Shown here one piece after another: positions 1 through 10,086 of a stretch of 22,626 nt of DNA. A program made the translations under genes and the position numbers. The notes beneath the pieces are model-generated. The model had not been told where the DNA came from and searched no databases. It saw only the letters and a program-made list of their open reading frames with translations. Each line of letters opens with the position of its first letter. The first letter of the stretch is position 1. The stretch lies in the IMG/VR virus record IMGVR_UViG_3300045999_010001, positions 1 to 22,626 of that record. One strand, given 5' to 3'. Source of the stretch: a virus.

Positions 1-2244
1 AACGGATATCAAGGCGATACTAGAACTGGCGCCATCGTTTGCGGATTCAAGTTGCAGGCGCGGAGAATAGGAGCTGCTGTTGTAGAAGTTGCTACGCGCA
101 CTAGACGTGCCCACTAGGAGCCTGCCGGAGCTGTCGATGCGGACGGCTTCAACGTTTCCAGTTCCGTAATAAAAACTACCGCCGCCACCGCTATTTGCGC
201 CGATTGAAAAAGCCTGCGTTCCATTAACAAGAAAACTTTGCAGAGGCAAAGTAGCGTGATTGATCCGAACGCCGTAAATGGCAGAAGAATTGACGTATAA
301 CTGTGCATCAGTAGGGCTCGTAGTGCCAATCCCCAGTGACCCTCCGGGCGTGAGAGTCATCTTGGTAGTTACACCGCCGCCAGTTGTAGCTTGGGTGCGG
401 AACTGCAGGCCGAAGTCGTTATCGCCAGCGCCACCCAGATACGGTTTAATTTCAGCAATCGTCCCCCGGTCCTGACCTATTTGGTTTGTGCTTCGGAATG
501 TCAGACCGTAATTCAGCAGCGTATTAATCGACGCAGTGCTGCTGTTGCGGATTTGAATATCGCCTTCGTTGACTTCTAAAAGCTTGGCAGGCGAACTAGT
601 CCCCACGCCCACGAGCCCTGCCTGCGTAATTCGCATACGCTCGGCAATACCTGAACTATTATTAGTACTAAACGTAATCTGCCCCTGGTCGCTAAATGAA
701 CCAGTTAAAAAACCAATTTGAACAACGTCAAATTGGTTTGCAGAACCAGCAAAAGAACCAATTTTACTGATAAGAGAATTGGCAGATGAAAATCCGGCGC
801 CATTAACAAGGCGAATATTGCCACTGGCGTGAATAATTTCTTGAGGGCTTGAAACTCCAATCCCTAAACGCCCTGAGCCGTCAATACGAACAGTCTCTTG
901 CCATGCTCCGTCATACTTTTCAAATGCAAGCACAGTATTTGCCTTTTGGCCGATCCTCACGCTGTAATTTAAGCCTGATCCTGTCTCGGTAAAGCCTATA
1001 GACATGTTTTCCATGTCTGCCGTTGCGTTCCGAGACGTTATTGCACCAACAACATGAAGTGGGTATGCAGGACTCGTAGTACCAATCCCTAAACGGCCTG
1101 ACGTATCCAGCAGCATTCTTGTGGTGCTGTTTGTCATAAACCCACAATCATGGTTTGAAAGCGAACCGATTTCTGGACGAGTTGAATAACCAATTCCTCC
1201 GTAAATTGTGCCATTTCCAGCACTAATAACACCTCCTTGAACATCAAGTTTATAACTAGGCGAACTAGTCCCCACGCCCACGAGCCCTGCCGAGGTGATG
1301 CGCAGGCGTTCGGAGCCATTTGCAACGAACTTAATTAAAGTGGCTGATGCAAGCTCGGTTGCCGTTGAATCTGCATAAAGATAATTATTTGAACCATTTA
1401 TATAAAGCGCATTATTTGATGGCAACTGAATAGAACCATTGACATCCAGCGCACGAGTAGGCGAACTCGCCCCAACACCAACATTCCCACTCGCATCCAC
1501 AAACAACCTGCCAGACCCACCAGTACTGATGGCCACTTGGTCTGCGCCGGGGGAATAAATGCCGGTATTGGTGTCTCCAGTGAATGTAATAGTAGGTGCG
1601 CCAGTAGAACCAACTGCATGACTAAAAACACCAGTTGTTTGAATGGTTTGACTACCAAAATCAGGACTGATTTTTGTGCCAGCGATAGCAGCAGATGCAT
1701 TCACATCCGCATTAACGATGGTGCCATCGGCAATCATCGTGCTGGTAACAGTTCCGCTGTCGCCAGTGGTAACCACGGTGCCGCTTACATTTGGCAATGT
1801 AATAGTACGATCCGCTGTGGGATCAACAACAGTCAGCGTGGTCTCAAAGCCATCGTCTGTACTGCCTTCAAAAATAAGATTTGCTGACGGCCCCATGGTC
1901 AGCGAACCAGTCATGGTGTCGCCAGTGGAATTCACAAACTCACCGGCTTCACTACGCCACGCGGCACCGTCCCAAATCTTGAACACATACGTGCCACCGC
2001 TGGTATCAAGCCATTGCTCGCCAAGACTATTACCAGCAGTACCACCGCTTGCAGGGCTAACATTTGGGGCTGTTGCACCAACATGCACAGGCCCCACTTT
2101 CACTAAATTGCCATTAGTGTCTTTGAAAAAAGCTCCAGGGCTACCACTTGCATAGTTAATAGCAATTTGACCATCAACCATGGAGGCAGGATTAGGACGC
2201 TTGTTAAGCGTCGATGAACGCAGATGCTGAAGAACACCAGCCAT
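1..2244 (-). CDS. Second tail fibre protein, C-terminus beyond the window
   Basis: Translating the minus strand from ATG at 2242-2244 gives 748 codons with no stop down to base 1, so the gene continues off the window. Residues 1-50 look like an attachment start (MAGVLQHLRSS, then DGQIAINYASG and FFKDTNG). Around 75-100 is a Trp-rich segment (GEQWLDTSGG, WDGAAW). Residues 109-175 (LIFEGS, TITLPN, GTVVTTGD) also occur at the end of the neighbouring fibre. From residue 243 on, a SGRLGIGTSSP-type module recurs seven times. Known phage fibres with such modules often end in a self-cleaving intramolecular chaperone (peptidase S74); that end would lie beyond base 1 and is not seen. It probably forms a trimeric host-recognition fibre. 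The start follows an AAAGG ribosome site that sits in a hairpin. Fibre identity is quite sure; receptor and exact class are unknown. Confidence 0.85.
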   Translation of the reverse strand, partial: MAGVLQHLRSSTLNKRPNPASMVDGQIAINYASGSPGAFFKDTNGNLVKVGPVHVGATAPNVSPASGGTAGNSLGEQWLDTSGGTYVFKIWDGAAWRSEAGEFVNSTGDTMTGSLTMGPSANLIFEGSTDDGFETTLTVVDPTADRTITLPNVSGTVVTTGDSGTVTSTMIADGTIVNADVNASAAIAGTKISPDFGSQTIQTTGVFSHAVGSTGAPTITFTGDTNTGIYSPGADQVAISTGGSGRLFVDASGNVGVGASSPTRALDVNGSIQLPSNNALYINGSNNYLYADSTATELASATLIKFVANGSERLRITSAGLVGVGTSSPSYKLDVQGGVISAGNGTIYGGIGYSTRPEIGSLSNHDCGFMTNSTTRMLLDTSGRLGIGTTSPAYPLHVVGAITSRNATADMENMSIGFTETGSGLNYSVRIGQKANTVLAFEKYDGAWQETVRIDGSGRLGIGVSSPQEIIHASGNIRLVNGAGFSSANSLISKIGSFAGSANQFDVVQIGFLTGSFSDQGQITFSTNNSSGIAERMRITQAGLVGVGTSSPAKLLEVNEGDIQIRNSSTASINTLLNYGLTFRSTNQIGQDRGTIAEIKPYLGGAGDNDFGLQFRTQATTGGGVTTKMTLTPGGSLGIGTTSPTDAQLYVNSSAIYGVRINHATLPLQSFLVNGTQAFSIGANSGGGGSFYYGTGNVEAVRIDSSGRLLVGTSSARSNFYNSSSYSPRLQLESANDGASSSIALISV
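94..1518 (-). repeat. Seven dispersed GIGTSSP modules in the second fibre
   Basis: Modules of about 25-30 residues with the pattern RI-SSG-LGIGTSSP-x-x-x-L-V occur at residues about 243-272, 309-338, 376-401, 449-475, 535-561, 629-654 and 699-717. The start-to-start spacing is roughly 66 to 94 residues. The intervening sequences differ from each other. The last copy (LLVGTSSARS) is the most diverged. In known fibres this motif caps successive shaft or beta-structured segments, so the protein is probably a chain of repeated folding units. Confidence 0.75.
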
Positions 2245-2317: not shown

Positions 2318-5300
2318 TCAGAACGTACCTTCATCAACAGTGGCATCAATAGAGCCAGCGGAGAAATTACCACTTGCGTCACGAGCAACAATTGCGCTCG
2401 CAGTGTTGGCGCTAGTAGCAGTAGTGGCACTATTGCTAACCTTGCCAGTAGTAGAAATTGTAGAAAGTTTAGTATCGGCAATGCTGCCAGCAAGCATCGT
2501 ATTAGTGACAGTGCCAGTATCACCAGTGGTGATGACGGTGCCAGTGGTGTCTGGCAGCGTAATCACCTTGTCCGAAGTGGCATCAGCAGCAGCAAGCTGA
2601 ATTTCAAAAGCGTTATCAGTGGCTCCTTCGAAAAGAAGAGAGCCAGTTGTGCCAATGACCACTTCACCAGTGATGGTGCCGCCAGCCCTTTGTAGCGCAC
2701 TGTTCGCTAAGTCATAAGCACTTTTTACCGCAGTGGCAGTAGCAGCAAGTGTCGAACTTGTCGTACTAATGGAATCAGTGAGCTGAACGCTGCCACGCAC
2801 GCTTGTCGTGGCATCAGGAATGGAAATTACTGGAGTGGTCGATCCACTGACGACAGTGAGTGGAGCATTAACACTCACTGAAAGAACAGTGCCGCTTGCT
2901 GGAGTGACCCAGTGAACGCCAGTGCCAAAAGCGGAATTTGCAGTTAACACTTGGCCATTGGCACCCACTGCTTGCTTGATAAGAGTGGTGCCACTGCCAA
3001 CGAGAATATCTCCTCTTGTGTAGGAGTTAAAACTAGTGCCGCCATAGCCAACGGCAAGAATGCCACTCGCTACATTGTTGACATTTCGGCATTCCGTGCT
3101 AACTTCTTCAATCGCTGCCTGCACATTGCTACTTGCAATATTTGCAGCAGGAGAGAATGAAACCTGCGCGGCTGTTTGGGAAAGATAGGTGGAGCTAACA
3201 TCCACTTCAGTCCATGCAGTGCCGTTGCAAAGCAGAATATCTGGCGGTTGAAGAGTGGTTTCAGGAGCAGGTGATGTACCGGTGCCACCACTTGCCACTA
3301 CTACGTAATAACGATTGAATGTGGCCGATGGAGATGGCAGTGGTTGACCAACACTTAAACCAACGGCGGCGCCATCGCTACTTGTGCTAGCTATGACATT
3401 TCCACTTGCATTGTACGTGCCACCAAATATAATTTCCCCGACGCTAATACCAACGGGGTTCCAGACATTTCCGTCCCACAGATAAAGATCTTTTTCTAGC
3501 GGATTGAAGAAGAATTGACCAATAAAATCAGCGATTGGCGGCGATTCGCCAAACTGACTCACTGAATAATTGGCAAGCTTGGAAGCAAGAATAGAATCAT
3601 CTGCAATAAGGCCACTACCAAATGTACCAGTAGTTATTTTCGATGCAGGAAGAGCCGGAATATCATCTGCAACAAGACTGGCCTCCCCTGCGCTGATGTG
3701 TCCCTGTGCATCTACTGTCACTTTGTAATAGACGCCAGATGCAACGCTATTTGCATGGTTAAAGATGCCACTAACAGTGACCAAGCCCGTGCCAGCTTGG
3801 GCTACACCCAGGTCTGCAGTGGTAGCCCTAGGAAGATCGTCGGCCGTGATGGCACGGAAAGTCGGAGCTGCGTCAGCGCTACCACTTGCAGGACCGGCAA
3901 AAAAGCGCGTGGCAACTTGCGTGTTTAACGCAGGAATGATGGACGCGCTAAAAGCATCAGGATAGGAAGTGGTGAAGCTGTAAATAGTATCGCCTGAAAT
4001 TACAGCAGTGGAAAGTCCAGACTGCCGCAGCCATTCGCTTCCTGTCCAGGTGTATTCAATACTAGTGCCAGTATTAAGCCATTGTTGGCCAATGAAAACG
4101 CCGCTACCCACTGGAGTAGAGCCGGCAACAACGGCAGCGGAATTATCTGCCATTTTGGCGCTGGTAACAGCGTCATCACTAATCTTTGCAGTAACAACCG
4201 CTCCATCATTAATTTTTGCTGAAGTGACTGCAGCGTTGGCGATGGTGGCTGCAAATGCTCCTGTGCCAGTGCCAGTGACATCGCCAGAAAGAGTGATAGT
4301 TTGATCGCCAGTGTTGGTACCAGTGGAAGTCCCCGAGAAGGTGCCGTTTTGTGTAGCAAGCGTGCCAAGGCCGAGAGTGCCACGAATGTCTGAAATGCTC
4401 GCATCATCAAGAATTGAACGAGCAGCAGAAGTGCAAGTGATTTCCTCTAAAGTACCACCACTTGCCGAAAAACGACCAAGAATGACATCGCTAGCGCTTG
4501 TAGCTTGAATCTTGCTATAAGAAACTGCGGCGTCAACAATCTTGGCAGTGGTCACGCCACTGTCAATAATCTTCGCAGTGGTTACAGCATTGCTCGCAAG
4601 CTTATCCGCAGTGACATTTGCGTCAGCAATTTTGATCGTAGTAACACCGCTATCAGCAAGCTTTGCAGTGGTAATCGCGCTATTGGCGATGTCTGCAGTG
4701 ACAATAGATTCGGCATCGTAATTGCCGCTTGCTACTGTATTTTGTACTGCCAACGAGCCAAGGCCAAGAGTGGTACGCTGTGCACTTGCATTGGCGTCAT
4801 CAAGAATGGCGCGGCCAGCAGCAGTGATCGCAGAAGTGGCGTAAGTGTCAGAAGCCGTGGTGTAAATAATCTGGCCGGATGCAGTGGTAAGCCCTGCAAT
4901 GGAAGCCAAGGCAGCGTCATAAGCCTGTACGTCAGTACCAATGGCCAAACCAAGGTTTGTGCGGGCTCCAGAAGCAGTAGAAGCTCCTGTGCCACCATCC
5001 GCAATGGCAAGATCCGTGATGCCGCTAATCACGCCGGCATTGATCGTGGCGTAACTAATGGTGCCGCTGCTAAGAACGGCCGTACCACCAGTGATTGCCA
5101 CCCCAGAAGCCGCTTGTACTGCCATCGTGCCCAGGCCTAGCGTCGTGCGCTGAGCACTGGCATCAGCGTCGTCAAGGAGCGCTCTACCGGCCTCTGTCAG
5201 CGTGATGGTTTCTACGTTGCCACTACCAGCAGATGTGCGACCAAGAAGCACTCCGCTTGCTACTTGCTGAATTTTTGCAAACGTAACAGCGTTGTCGGCA

Positions 5301-8300
5301 ATGGCGGCAGTAGGAATAGAGCCACTTGCATAGCTTCCAGAAGGAATAGAGCTGGCAGTGATTACGGCGCCAGATAGCTCCCCTGAAGAAAGATTTAACT
5401 TGCTAATTGTGACGGCGCCCGATGCAATTTTTGCGGCGGTAATTCCACTGTCAACGAGCTGCGCAGTGCCAACGCTGCCGCTTGCCATCTTGACAAGAGT
5501 GATGGCAGAATCGACAACGTTGATCGTAGCGACAGATCCACTCGCTAACTTGCTTTGAGTGATGCCACTATCGACAATATTGATGGTTGCAACGGCATTC
5601 GAGGCAAGTTTCGCTTGTGTAACTCCACTATCAAGAATATTGATAGTGGCCACTGCATTGGCGGCTAACTTGCTTTGCGTAATACCACTATCGACAAGTT
5701 GATTGGTGCCGACACTATTACTCGCCATTTTCGCGAGAGTAACAGCACTATCAATAATGTTGATTGTTGCAACGCTGTCACTTGCCAGCTTGGATTGCGT
5801 AACTCCACTATCAAGAATATTAATAGTCGCCACGCTTCCAGAGGCTAACTTCGCTTGTGTAACTCCGCTATCGGCAATGTTGACAGTTGCAATGGAAGAA
5901 GCGGCAAGTTTTTCTTGCGTGATACCACTTGCGGCAATATTAATTGTTGCTACGGCATTAGCGGCAAGCTTTGATTGTGTAACACCGCTATCAACTAGCT
6001 GAACAGTGCCGACGGCGTTTGAAGCTAGCTTTGCCTGCGTAATTCCACTGTCAACGAGCTGAGCAGTGTTGACGCTTCCATTCGCCATCTTGGCGAGCGT
6101 AATGGCGCTATCAACAATATTGACAGTGTTAACGGCATCACTTGCGAGCTTTACCTGGGTAATACCACTATCGACAAGGTTAACAGTAGAAACCGCTCCG
6201 GCTGCTAATTTTGACTGAGTGATACCACTGTCAACAAGATTTACAGTTGCAACGGCATTGGCGGCAAGCTTTTCTTGAGTGACGCCACTGGTAACAAGCT
6301 GAGCAGTGTTAACACTTGCGCTTGCCATTTTGACAAGCGTCACCGAAGCATCAATAATATTAACCGTATTGACGGACCCACTCGCCAATTTAGCTTGAGT
6401 GACGCCACTGTCAACCAGTCGATTCGTATCAACACTATTATTTGCTAGTTTTGCGAGCGTTACAGAGGAATCAATGAGATTGAGAGTGTCAACGGCTCCG
6501 CTGGCAATCTTGACTTGCGTTATACCACTATCAACGATATTGATAGTAGCTACTGCATTGGCAGCAAGCTTTGATTGGGTGACGCCACTATTGACAAGAT
6601 TAACTGTTGCTACTGCGTCAGCAGCAAGTTTGCTTTGCGTGATGCCACTATCGACAACTTTTGCAGTGTCTACACTGTTTGACGCGAGTTTGGCAAGTGT
6701 AATTGCACCATCAATCACATTGATCGTATTGATAGCGTCGCTAGCCAGTTTTGCTTGAGTGATGCCGCTATTGACAATTTGAGAAGTGCCAACGCTATTG
6801 CTTGCCATCTTGGCAAACGTAATCGCGCCGTCAATGATGTTGAGAGTATCAACAGCTCCGCTAGAAAGCTTCGACTGAGTGATGCCGCTATCGATGATAT
6901 TGATAGTGCCTACTGCGTTTGCAGCCAGCTTGCTTTGAGTGATTCCGCTGTCAACCACGTTGACTGTGGCCACTGCATTTGCAGCTAATTTTGCTTGCGT
7001 AACGCCGCTATCAACAAGCTGTGCTGTATTGATGCTTCCATTCGCCATTTTGGCAAGCGTGATCGCGCCATCGATAACATTGATGGTCGCAATTGCCCCA
7101 CTGGCCAGCTTGGCTTGTGTAACACCGCTTTCTACTAACTGGGCGGTGCTAACACTGCCGCTCGCCATTTTGGCAAATGTAACGGCATTATCAATGATAT
7201 TAATGGTGGCAACTGATCCGCTTGCAAGCTTGCTTTGCGTAATGCCACTATCAATTATGTTGATCGTCGCAACACTGTTTGCAGCAAGCTTACTTTGAGT
7301 GATGCCGCTATCAACAACATTAATAGTCGCCACTGCATTGGCAGCTAGCTTGCTTTGCGTAACGCTGCTATCAATAATTTGCGAAGTATTTACACTATTA
7401 CTGGCAAGCTTTGCAAGCGTAATCGCGCTATCGGCAATGTTAATTGTTGCAACAGATCCGCTCGCTAGCTTGCTTTGAGTAATGCCGCTATCGACCAGTT
7501 GCGCAGTATTGACACTACCGCTAGCCATTTTGGCCAAAGTAACGGCGCCGTCAATAATATTGATTGCCGCAACCGCATCACTTGCTAATTTCGATTGCGT
7601 AATCCCACTGCTAATAATGTTGACAGTTGCAACACTATTGGCGGCGAGCTTCTCTTGCGTAACACCACTTGCAATCAAATTGATAGTGTTAACACTGTTT
7701 GAAGCGAGCTTGGCAAAGGTGACGCCACTATCAACAAGATTAATTGTCGCCACTGCATTAGCAGCTAGCTTGCTTTGCGTAATGCCGCTGGCAGCAACAT
7801 TAATAGTTGCCACCGCGTCAGCGGCAAGCTTTGCTTGCGTGATGCCGCTATCCACCAATTGCGTAGTGCCAACTGAGTTGGCCGCCATCTTGGCAATGGT
7901 GACGCCATTAGCCGCTAAATGAACGGTATCAATGGCACCTGCACTGATATTGACGCCCGTAATTCCGCTGGTTTGAATCTTGGCAGAAGTAACGGCTCCA
8001 TTCAGAATTTTGACAGTCTCTACTGCATCACTAGCAAGCTTGCCTGCCGTGACCGCCAAATTATCAATCTTGCCAGTGGTGACGCTTAAATCTTCAAGAA
8101 GAGAAGTGTTGATAGTATTGCCAGTGGCAACCACGCCAAGCTCTAAAGTGGAGCGAGCGGCAGCAGCATTTGCATCATCAAGAAGAGTGCGAATATAAAC
8201 AGTGCAATCAATCTCTTCCACATTGCCAGTGGAAGCACTGCGCCCAAGGAGCTTATTTGCGCTTACTTGCTGAATCTTGTCATAAGTAAGCGTATTCGGG

Positions 8301-8518
8301 GCGATGGAAACACCAGTGAGTTTTGCAACGCTGGTCTGATTAATTTTTGAGATGTCAAGCGTTGCAGCATCGGCGACATTAAAGCCCGCTTGAATCAGGC
8401 TTTTAACCTGCACCTTCTTGGTCTGACTAGCGCTAACGTCTGCAATGGGCAATACGTCATTAAACGCTACGCCTCCCTGAGGAAGTTCGACGAGTTCCGT
8501 AATTCTTTGATCGGCCAT
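2318..8518 (-). CDS. Giant repetitive tail fibre protein (2066 aa)
   Basis: The N-terminus (MADQRITELVELPQGG, then DVLPIADVSASQTKKVQVKSL) matches a start common in phage fibres and probably attaches to the tail. A module with LLGR, GNVEEI, LLDDA and TLGLG occurs four times (near 8250-8126, 5256-5119, 4837-4735 and 4489-4351), the third copy lacking its first half. Residues 205-1044 are about 42 units of 20 residues; shorter 10-residue arrays lie at 4499-4708 and 4142-4231. Two Trp modules (IGQQWLNTG...WTGSEW and FFFNPLEKDLYLWDGNVW) follow. The C-terminal third has the familiar SFSPAANIASSNVQAAIEEV, SVRGSVQLTDS and AVKSAYDLANSAL fibre motifs, then an IFEG-TITLP-TGD domain shared with the next fibre. 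It likely forms a long trimeric shaft. The end (NFSAGSIDATVDEGTF) is abrupt, with no recognisable tip or chaperone domain, so the downstream fibre may supply the tip. Confidence 0.9.
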   Translation of the reverse strand: MADQRITELVELPQGGVAFNDVLPIADVSASQTKKVQVKSLIQAGFNVADAATLDISKINQTSVAKLTGVSIAPNTLTYDKIQQVSANKLLGRSASTGNVEEIDCTVYIRTLLDDANAAAARSTLELGVVATGNTINTSLLEDLSVTTGKIDNLAVTAGKLASDAVETVKILNGAVTSAKIQTSGITGVNISAGAIDTVHLAANGVTIAKMAANSVGTTQLVDSGITQAKLAADAVATINVAASGITQSKLAANAVATINLVDSGVTFAKLASNSVNTINLIASGVTQEKLAANSVATVNIISSGITQSKLASDAVAAINIIDGAVTLAKMASGSVNTAQLVDSGITQSKLASGSVATINIADSAITLAKLASNSVNTSQIIDSSVTQSKLAANAVATINVVDSGITQSKLAANSVATINIIDSGITQSKLASGSVATINIIDNAVTFAKMASGSVSTAQLVESGVTQAKLASGAIATINVIDGAITLAKMANGSINTAQLVDSGVTQAKLAANAVATVNVVDSGITQSKLAANAVGTINIIDSGITQSKLSSGAVDTLNIIDGAITFAKMASNSVGTSQIVNSGITQAKLASDAINTINVIDGAITLAKLASNSVDTAKVVDSGITQSKLAADAVATVNLVNSGVTQSKLAANAVATINIVDSGITQVKIASGAVDTLNLIDSSVTLAKLANNSVDTNRLVDSGVTQAKLASGSVNTVNIIDASVTLVKMASASVNTAQLVTSGVTQEKLAANAVATVNLVDSGITQSKLAAGAVSTVNLVDSGITQVKLASDAVNTVNIVDSAITLAKMANGSVNTAQLVDSGITQAKLASNAVGTVQLVDSGVTQSKLAANAVATINIAASGITQEKLAASSIATVNIADSGVTQAKLASGSVATINILDSGVTQSKLASDSVATINIIDSAVTLAKMASNSVGTNQLVDSGITQSKLAANAVATINILDSGVTQAKLASNAVATINIVDSGITQSKLASGSVATINVVDSAITLVKMASGSVGTAQLVDSGITAAKIASGAVTISKLNLSSGELSGAVITASSIPSGSYASGSIPTAAIADNAVTFAKIQQVASGVLLGRTSAGSGNVETITLTEAGRALLDDADASAQRTTLGLGTMAVQAASGVAITGGTAVLSSGTISYATINAGVISGITDLAIADGGTGASTASGARTNLGLAIGTDVQAYDAALASIAGLTTASGQIIYTTASDTYATSAITAAGRAILDDANASAQRTTLGLGSLAVQNTVASGNYDAESIVTADIANSAITTAKLADSGVTTIKIADANVTADKLASNAVTTAKIIDSGVTTAKIVDAAVSYSKIQATSASDVILGRFSASGGTLEEITCTSAARSILDDASISDIRGTLGLGTLATQNGTFSGTSTGTNTGDQTITLSGDVTGTGTGAFAATIANAAVTSAKINDGAVVTAKISDDAVTSAKMADNSAAVVAGSTPVGSGVFIGQQWLNTGTSIEYTWTGSEWLRQSGLSTAVISGDTIYSFTTSYPDAFSASIIPALNTQVATRFFAGPASGSADAAPTFRAITADDLPRATTADLGVAQAGTGLVTVSGIFNHANSVASGVYYKVTVDAQGHISAGEASLVADDIPALPASKITTGTFGSGLIADDSILASKLANYSVSQFGESPPIADFIGQFFFNPLEKDLYLWDGNVWNPVGISVGEIIFGGTYNASGNVIASTSSDGAAVGLSVGQPLPSPSATFNRYYVVVASGGTGTSPAPETTLQPPDILLCNGTAWTEVDVSSTYLSQTAAQVSFSPAANIASSNVQAAIEEVSTECRNVNNVASGILAVGYGGTSFNSYTRGDILVGSGTTLIKQAVGANGQVLTANSAFGTGVHWVTPASGTVLSVSVNAPLTVVSGSTTPVISIPDATTSVRGSVQLTDSISTTSSTLAATATAVKSAYDLANSALQRAGGTITGEVVIGTTGSLLFEGATDNAFEIQLAAADATSDKVITLPDTTGTVITTGDTGTVTNTMLAGSIADTKLSTISTTGKVSNSATTATSANTASAIVARDASGNFSAGSIDATVDEGTF
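4142..4231 (-). repeat. Three 10-residue (30-bp) shaft repeats
   Basis: The units AVTSAKINDG, AVVTAKISDD and AVTSAKMADN are contiguous in the large fibre, just before its first Trp module. They are the same elementary unit as in the longer arrays. Confidence 0.8.
4499..4708 (-). repeat. Seven 10-residue (30-bp) shaft repeats
   Basis: Seven consecutive 10-residue units, from SIVTADIANS through AITTAKLADS and GVTTAKIVDA to AVSYSKIQAT, lie between two LLDDA modules of the large fibre. They show the elementary unit (x-V-T-x-x-K-[LI]-x-D/x-x) from which the 20-residue repeat is doubled. Confidence 0.85.
5387..7906 (-). repeat. 60-bp tandem coding repeat, about 42 units, with a 360-bp super-period
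   Basis: Unit n begins at 7906 - 60(n-1). Unit 1 is GVTIAKMAANSVGTTQLVDS; unit 41, at 5447-5506, is AITLVKMASGSVGTAQLVDS; unit 42 is degenerate. There is no length change across the array. The consensus is G[IV]T-Q-x-KLA-x-x-AV-x-T-x-N-I-x-DS and splits into two 10-residue halves. A second type (A[IV]TLAKMA...T-AQLVDS) occupies units 1, 7, 9, 13, 15, 19, 21, 25, 27, 31, 37 and 41, which is mostly positions 1 and 3 of every six. Copies differ at many synonymous sites. It is a protein shaft repeat, not a CRISPR array. Confidence 0.95.
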
Positions 8519-8594: not shown

Positions 8595-9605
8595 TTAGTC
8601 GGTCAGTTCTTTCAGGAGATAATCAAGACCCTGCTCAAGATAAATAGCGTCGTTATCCTCTTTCAAGATGTATTCGGGGGGAATACCCACTCGCAGCCTG
8701 AATTCGCCAGTTGTCACAAAATCGACCGAGCAGGCGACCAAGGCATCAGAGGTGACAGTCACTCCAGCTCTGGTGACAACTGCTTCAATTTCGTAATACA
8801 CTTCCTCCCTAAAAGTGGGAGTTTTGTCTACTGAAGACAAGGAAAGCAACGACTTGAAGCTGCTGCCTATTTCTAGTCGGTTGATTACTTGCAACAAGAA
8901 TAATGGAATATCCTGGTTCCCAATGTTTTCATAACTAAATAAGCACTCAATACTGCCATTTCCGCTTAATAGTCCAGCGGAATATTGCTGCTTAAATCGA
9001 TCAGACAAGCTTGTCGTTTCTATCGCGCCTCTGTCAGTATTGATTTCAAACGATGTGACAGAACCAAGCGTGTTATATCTCGTATCTCTTACCGCCACCG
9101 AGATTTCAATGGGTTCGCCATAAAACTGGGCAAGTGCATATTCATCTGCCCGTTCATTATTAATGGCATCACCAAAAATTTCAAAAAGGCGGATACCACC
9201 AGCCTGGTTTACATGGGCATAAGCCCTGATATTGCTTTGAATGACAAAATCACTTAGTCTAAATTCGTCGTATCCATCAGGAGGCAGATCGCTAGTCGTA
9301 CTAATTTCATCGTCCAACCAATCGGGAAGTCCCGCTGTACTTCCAGATGACCACACCACTGCGCTATAGCCATCAACATCTGGCCCTGGAACACTCCAGA
9401 ATGTTGCTGGCATAAATAAAAGCCCTCTGGGATCTTCCGTGGTAATTTCAAGAAGATCACCAGTAAGCAAATTATCTTCACTGCCGTCAAAGCTAAAGCG
9501 ATTTAATGTGGTATTGACATCGCTAGCCGAAACATTAGCCGTGAAAACATTTTCACCTCCTCGCTGAAGCTTGATAGCGCCTGTATGGCCAACAAAAAAC
9601 GTCAT
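8595..9605 (-). CDS. Tail tube paralogue with large insertion (336 aa)
   Basis: The start MTFFVGHTGAIKL parallels MPFYTGRTGKLRL of the upstream tail tube protein. Residues 181-227 (GSVTSFEINTD, ETTSLSDRF, AGLLSGNGSIECLFSYEN) align with tube residues 18-64 (WTLDTSVNMLDTTALGD, PGLFSATGSATLSYYN). About 160 residues are therefore inserted after the first strand; these contain FSFDGSEDNLLTGDLLEITT and RLFEIFGDAIN and no motif I can name. It follows the tube gene by 61 bp and precedes the giant fibre, so a role as a decorated, minor or terminal tube ring, or as a collar for fibre attachment, is a reasonable inference. The tube-fold assignment is from sequence pattern only; the job is uncertain. Confidence 0.75.
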   Translation of the reverse strand: MTFFVGHTGAIKLQRGGENVFTANVSASDVNTTLNRFSFDGSEDNLLTGDLLEITTEDPRGLLFMPATFWSVPGPDVDGYSAVVWSSGSTAGLPDWLDDEISTTSDLPPDGYDEFRLSDFVIQSNIRAYAHVNQAGGIRLFEIFGDAINNERADEYALAQFYGEPIEISVAVRDTRYNTLGSVTSFEINTDRGAIETTSLSDRFKQQYSAGLLSGNGSIECLFSYENIGNQDIPLFLLQVINRLEIGSSFKSLLSLSSVDKTPTFREEVYYEIEAVVTRAGVTVTSDALVACSVDFVTTGEFRLRVGIPPEYILKEDNDAIYLEQGLDYLLKELTD

Positions 9606-9606
9606 C

Positions 9607-9643
9607 TCGCTTCAGCGACTATTCTTCCATTGTACGAACAATG
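9607..9643 (-). other. Two small hairpins ahead of the tube paralogue
   Basis: Reading the minus strand, CATTGT-TCGT-ACAATG (9628-9643, 6-bp stem) is followed by TCGC-TGAA-GCGA (9607-9618, 4-bp stem) directly before the ATG at 9605. The second stem overlaps the only purine-rich stretch near the start (GAAGCGAG), so it could limit initiation. TACAAT at 9634-9639 resembles a -10 box, but I see no well-spaced -35. Confidence 0.3.
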
Positions 9644-9666
9644 CAGATTGTAAATTAAGTTTCCTA

Positions 9667-10086
9667 TCAAGTGGTGCCAGTGAGCACCACTGCGTCGAGG
9701 GGACCGTCAATGGTAAAGTTGAACGACACAGTAGTTAGCTCATCGGTGGAAGAAGTAATGCTTGCACTATTGATGTAGGCATCAGCATTGAATGATTGAC
9801 TTGTGCCCACTTCAAAAGTAAGATTTACACGATCACTTTCAGTGACGGCACCAGTCTTGGTGATCCGCTCAAGAAGATTCGTCACGTCAGTAGCGTCGCC
9901 GTTGTAATAAGACAACGTAGCGCTGCCAGTGGCGCTAAACAGCCCAGGAGTGAATGTGTTGGCACTATCTCCGAGTGCCGTGGTGTCCAGCATATTCACG
10001 GATGTATCAAGAGTCCAGTTGCGAACCTTTGACACTTCACTGCCACCAAGACGCAGCTTGCCAGTGCGACCAGTATAAAAAGGCAT
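9667..10086 (-). CDS. Major tail tube protein (lambda gpV-like)
   Basis: This 139-aa protein has the typical siphovirus tube pattern: a first strand GRTGKLRLGG, then KVRNWTLDTSVNMLDTTALG, then FTPGLFSATGSATLSYYNGD, a helix DVTNLLERI, and a C-terminal beta region (SFNADAYINSASITSS, TTVSFNFTIDGPL). Known family members polymerise as hexameric rings around the tape measure protein to form the tail tube. It starts 44 bp after the J-like stop, with a sigma70-like promoter candidate in the gap and no clear Shine-Dalgarno sequence. Its position after the tip gene is unusual for lambda-like order. A further tube gene upstream of the window cannot be excluded, in which case this could be a minor tube form. 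Confidence 0.8.
   Translation of the reverse strand: MPFYTGRTGKLRLGGSEVSKVRNWTLDTSVNMLDTTALGDSANTFTPGLFSATGSATLSYYNGDATDVTNLLERITKTGAVTESDRVNLTFEVGTSQSFNADAYINSASITSSTDELTTVSFNFTIDGPLDAVVLTGTT

Follow-up and report, generated by a model that had tools for sequence, protein, structure and literature searches.

Decapeptide-repeat fibres of the type considered here are common in cyanophages and others. The same repeat, [AV]T..K[LI].., is found in CYPG_00016 of NATL2A-133, the tail fiber-like protein of S-TIP37, gp38 of Gordonia CloverMinnie, and Planktothrix Pag-Yong1; tblastn E-values reach 4e-43, and several of these phage genes carry a tail-fibre annotation. Two protein families, PHROG 28766 and PHROG 892, are tail fiber proteins by family name, a name that carries no structural or mechanistic information. 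A generic decapeptide query matched a single solved chain, PDB 9eg4 chain H ('orf16', 269 aa), whose approximately four decapeptides (GAVTANKLATDSVTTVKILDDNVTSDKI) make a very short stretch compared with the 42-unit array described below; a solved homologue with a long array was not found. The literature searched, which omits most subscription journals, yielded no paper on this repeat.

The DNA analysed here (the window) is a 22.6-kb viral record that encodes a siphovirus-like tail module on its minus strand. One gene of this module specifies a fibre protein with an uninterrupted array of 20-residue units. We read this array as a modular, probably beta-rich tail-fibre shaft: an adjustable spacer whose length changes through homologous recombination, for the most part 40 residues at a time (probability about 0.6).

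The fibre gene and its setting

The minus-strand gene order is tape measure, minor tail protein, J-like, two further proteins, fibre, and second tail-fiber gene. The tape measure protein matches Pfam TMP_3 (E 1e-22), and the minor tail protein corresponds to PHROG 15525. The fibre gene thus lies downstream of the tape measure, minor tail protein, and J-like tail-tip genes. Its product matches two PHROG tail fiber protein families strongly, over both the array and its flanks (phrog_28766, E 6e-124; phrog_892, E 6e-108), and matches Pfam PF25296 Decapeptide weakly over the array (E 1.4e-7; 31.8 bits, below the gathering cut-off of 45). Together, family and gene position suggest that the array protein is mounted on the tail as a fibre. 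The host is likely a cyanobacterium, because the best isolate match of the tape measure is to Synechococcus phage S-CBS4 (40% identical across one quarter of the protein).

Neighbouring genes provide further observations. Two consecutive proteins encoded at 8595-10086 have weak major tail protein matches (phrog_1407 for both, phrog_10528 for the smaller one); one of the two, of 336 residues, adjoins the fibre. The second tail-fiber gene (1-2244, minus strand) runs off the contig end, contains repeated GxGTSSP motifs, and matches phrog_9942 (E 4e-51). Between its region 1645-1935 and the C-terminal part of the first fibre, identity is 46%. Within the first fibre, the segment LLGR...EEI.C/T...R.LLDD...RTTLGLG recurs between decapeptide stretches (residues 80-130, 1080-1135, and later), giving a beads-on-a-string layout.

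Features of the fibre gene are as follows, with units counted from 0.

2318..8518, minus strand: tail-fibre gene, 2066 aa, carrying the array; assigned by PHROG families
7910..8518, minus strand: N-terminal part, aa 1-203, of near-constant length in most relatives
5390..7909, minus strand: array, fibre residues 204-1043, 42.0 units of 60 bp / 20 aa, no indel
7850..7909, minus strand: unit 0, M-type (NGVTIAKMAANSVGTTQLVD)
7190..7549, minus strand: units 6-11, six units against four in the relative L004; a 2-unit, 40-residue length difference
6050..7549, minus strand: units 6-30, M-type spacing 2,4,2,4, a 120-residue super-period
6770..6829, minus strand: unit 18, hybrid M-type, scar of a 6-unit (360-bp) loss or exchange
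2321..5389, minus strand: C-terminal part, aa 1044-2066, 1023 aa, of constant length in most complete relatives

The N-terminal part begins MADQRITEL and contains a segment LLGR...RTLLDD... and three degenerate units. The earlier note had placed the array at 5387-7906; the array itself stands, with its coordinates shifted by three bases to the correct phase, and its estimate of about 42 indel-free units of 60 bp proves to be exactly 42. A typical unit reads SGITQSKLAANAVATINIVD. Twelve of the 42 units are of a second type, here termed M-type (typically SAVTLAKMASGSVNTAQLVD, with TLAKMA..TAQLV); units without the M-type sequence are termed N units. M-type units occupy positions 1, 7, 9, 13, 15, 19, 21, 25, 27, 31, 37, and 41, counted from 1, which agrees with the placement of KMA/AQLVDS units that had been described for units 7 to 37.

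Periodicities at 10, 20, 40, and 120 residues

Protein identity was determined at successive lags: 0.565 at 20 residues, 0.587 at 40, 0.549 at 60, 0.587 at 80, 0.554 at 100, 0.685 at 120, 0.535 at 140, and 0.646 at 240. The value at 120 stands out from those at other multiples of 20 up to 220 (0.53-0.60), as the earlier note had predicted, and the six-unit lag exceeds all 5,000 unit shuffles (z about 5; p = 2e-4, the shuffle floor). The 10-residue period is weak in identity (0.128, against an off-period mean of 0.073). Hydropathy autocorrelation, however, reaches 0.65 at this period (lags of 5, 20, and 120 residues give 0.25, 0.76, and 0.87, respectively). The 10-residue level therefore is a strand-turn pattern rather than a sequence repeat. 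The reading of the array as a regular, probably beta-rich fibrous repeat with 10- and 20-residue levels is supported.

A fourth level, of 40 residues, had been overlooked. Identity at even unit lags exceeds that at odd lags by a mean of 0.06 (z = 6.6; p = 0.001, the lowest value that 1,000 shuffles allow). This even-lag excess is positive in 12 of the 13 arrays tested, with p below 0.05 in six.

Origin of the 120-residue super-period

According to the earlier proposal, 360-bp blocks were duplicated in tandem to build the array, each 120-residue period being one structural or axial repeat. The lag-120 excess agrees with this, as do a TRF period of 360 at 6917-7651 and the regular 2,4,2,4 spacing of M-type units across units 6-30, where M positions on 40-residue slots agree at a three-slot lag more often than by chance (0.83; p = 0.002, post hoc). 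Blocks of 360 bp (six units) do get gained or lost, as two comparisons reveal: the window with L004, and the relatives L032 and L054 with each other. After correction for column, however, codons for the same amino acid lack a lag-120 excess (0.435, against 0.405 expected; z = 1.4). Permuting units only inside each of five classes (M, before M, after M, between, and other) likewise leaves no significant six-unit excess (amino acid p = 0.24; nucleotide p = 0.11), so the lag-120 signal mainly reflects the arrangement of M-type units; with only two unit classes, a small excess persists (amino acid p = 0.03; nucleotide p = 0.005). The synonymous-codon and within-class tests do not support a recent 360-bp duplication, and any block duplication is too old for a clear silent-site mark.

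Relatives also speak against the block model. The 2,4,2,4 order as such is absent from most of them; their M-type units are spaced by 40, 80, 120, or 160 residues in many orders. Moreover, the extra six-unit block of L004 is not closely similar to its neighbours (best nucleotide matches 0.78-0.85). Growth by 360-bp blocks with a 120-residue structural repeat is thus very improbable. At the 120-residue level it is markers that are arranged, and no structural unit of that length is conserved; what is conserved is a step of 40 residues.

A natural series of shaft lengths

The earlier note had suggested comparing unit number in related phages. IMG/VR was scanned with four queries (J-like protein, neighbouring tail protein, N-terminal part of the fibre, and post-array domain), which identified many contigs with the same fibre gene. 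Both fibre ends are conserved, with an N-terminal part of about 203-205 residues and a C-terminal part of 1,023 residues in most relatives, and unit number ranges from 0 to 42. Counts, compiled by hand from the array outputs, are 2, 4, 6, 8, 10, 12, 14, 16, 18, 22, 24, and 42, plus array-free genes: three relatives (L138, L139, and L140) have an otherwise similar fibre gene without any array, in an open frame of 986 residues. One 22-unit fibre protein is identical to the letter in contigs of four metagenomes, so the arrays are stable and misassembly is unlikely. The N-terminal part had no relative in the cellular genome collection. The fibre of L016 / L046 has a second copy of the shaft end and cap segment further downstream, which suggests duplication of a whole shaft-end module, and L190 also has a duplicated SSGELSG cap.

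The closest relative of the window is L004, whose J-like protein is 99% identical. Their two arrays differ by one 2-unit and one 6-unit block, and otherwise are mostly 92-100% identical per unit. Window unit 18 is a mixture of two L004 units: the first 35 nt are those of unit 16, and from there on it matches unit 22 save for one base, with the switch point inside a common stretch. Such a hybrid is the scar that a 360-bp deletion or block replacement through homologous recombination between two M-type units leaves behind. Other relatives differ by six units (L032 and L054) or by two (L037 and L035; L059 and L036).

Of the codon changes between window and L004 (660 codons compared), 32 are synonymous and 13 nonsynonymous; the changes are mostly silent, and thus the units evolve under constraint. 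Divergence is uneven along the array, with most units 92-100% identical and units 19-37 nearly identical, a pattern that suggests mosaic recombination.

A bias toward even numbers

Among 25 related arrays, 61 of the 63 gaps between successive M-type units are even: gaps of 2 (18 times), 4 (29 times), 6 (12 times), 8 (once), and 10 (once), along with two gaps of 5. It is L004 that has the gap of 10, and one unit within this gap (unit 6) is a single residue short of the M criterion, so that the gap could be read as 6 + 4. Gaps of 5 occur in L060 and L062, which are related to each other. Total unit counts also are even, except in L190 (19 units) and in L060 and L062, which have nine units counted from the first M unit or eight from the N-terminal anchor. 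These exceptions rule out a strict even rule and leave a strong bias. A six-unit quantum was considered as well and set aside: within the close clade, unit counts occupy two of the three possible classes modulo 6, which by estimate is not significant.

The two lineages that depart from even numbers have the highest nucleotide identity between adjacent units (0.92 and 0.88-0.90, against at most 0.82 in the others). Single-unit duplications therefore seem to occur, but look young.

The preferred reading of the bias, held at moderate confidence because the arrays are related, is selection on the fold that keeps a 40-residue phase; gaps and counts are not independent, and the independent events number perhaps 10-15 by estimate. 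That two lineages tolerate odd counts weighs against this reading. Alternatively, the bias may be inherited mutationally from a two-unit (120-bp) founder, with unequal exchange mostly realigning like with like (M with M) and so moving in even steps. The unit 18 event lies between two M units, and the ends of the L032/L054 event lie between two SGITQPKLAANA units, both as this alternative would have it; nucleotide identity also is a little higher at even lags (0.60-0.63) than at odd (0.57-0.61). That difference is so slight, however, that homology would not strongly disfavour odd-step recombination. Furthermore, a founder pair with later conversion does not easily explain the bias, because non-M units are equally alike across and within parity (even-even 0.745, odd-odd 0.694, even-odd 0.711) and N units at even positions are no more M-like than those at odd (0.428 against 0.438), leaving no trace of M-to-N conversion at even positions in this comparison. 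Single-unit duplications, which do seem to happen, also count against it. Mutational inheritance as the explanation is somewhat unlikely, while part of the parity could be mutational, given the slightly higher even-lag homology.

Fold of the shaft

Single-chain AlphaFold2 models of 240 residues (19 alignment rows; pLDDT 62.3, pTM 0.51) and 120 residues (40 rows; pLDDT 68.8, pTM 0.58) are of low confidence. Both are all-beta, with one strand per approximately 10 residues, and the 40-residue alternation is not visible in either, which counts against the paired-unit reading. Matches of these models to known folds were to generic solenoids with poor superposition, and were not used. A low-identity repeat match in the PDB, to Legionella IcmE/DotG, was taken as compositional rather than homologous.

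The array may form an oligomeric beta fibre. Could the shaft instead be a monomeric, pentapeptide-like beta-solenoid with 20 residues per coil? Hydrophobic residues do recur with a spacing of five along the unit (columns 3, 8, 13, and 18), and the array matches Pfam PF13599 Pentapeptide_4 at E 9e-9, although weakly (35.7 bits, under the gathering cut-off of 38). The models also weakly resemble solenoid folds (LRR, right-handed helices), but with low model confidence and rmsd mostly 7-15 A. Phage tail fibres of known structure usually are trimers, which counts against a monomeric solenoid. This alternative is quite unlikely.

A model for shaft remodelling

These observations suggest a model in which the oligomeric shaft is a spacer of adjustable length that separates two conserved parts of the fibre, one basal and one distal. 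Its smallest element would be a 10-residue beta strand-turn; two such elements would have specialised to form the 20-residue unit, and two units together (40 residues) would be the working pair. Shaft length would change when like units recombine homologously and whole units are gained or lost, the products that keep the pair phase being those mostly seen. Shaft length may tune reach to the host.

A more specific version supposes a true 40-residue register: each 20-residue unit would turn the shaft by about half the symmetry angle, placing M-type units on one face as a lateral binding or packing stripe, and selection would remove length changes that break the register. This version is fairly doubtful.

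Among natural relatives, one fibre occurs in a graded series, its ends constant and its shaft of 0, 2, 4 ... 42 units. With this series, two questions can be put to the test: does infection depend on fibre length, and which repeat is the true structural one in these widespread decapeptide phage fibres? The even-number bias predicts a 40-residue repeat ahead of any structure.

Comparison with known decapeptide fibres

The decapeptide fibres compared here repeat mainly every 10 residues, without the 20- and 40-residue specialisation of the window fibre. Moreover, those inspected contain neither M-type units nor a 42-unit array. To the known decapeptide fibres, this locus and its relatives thus add three features: stepwise specialisation from 10 to 20 to 40 residues; the M-type marker; and a wide natural series of lengths.
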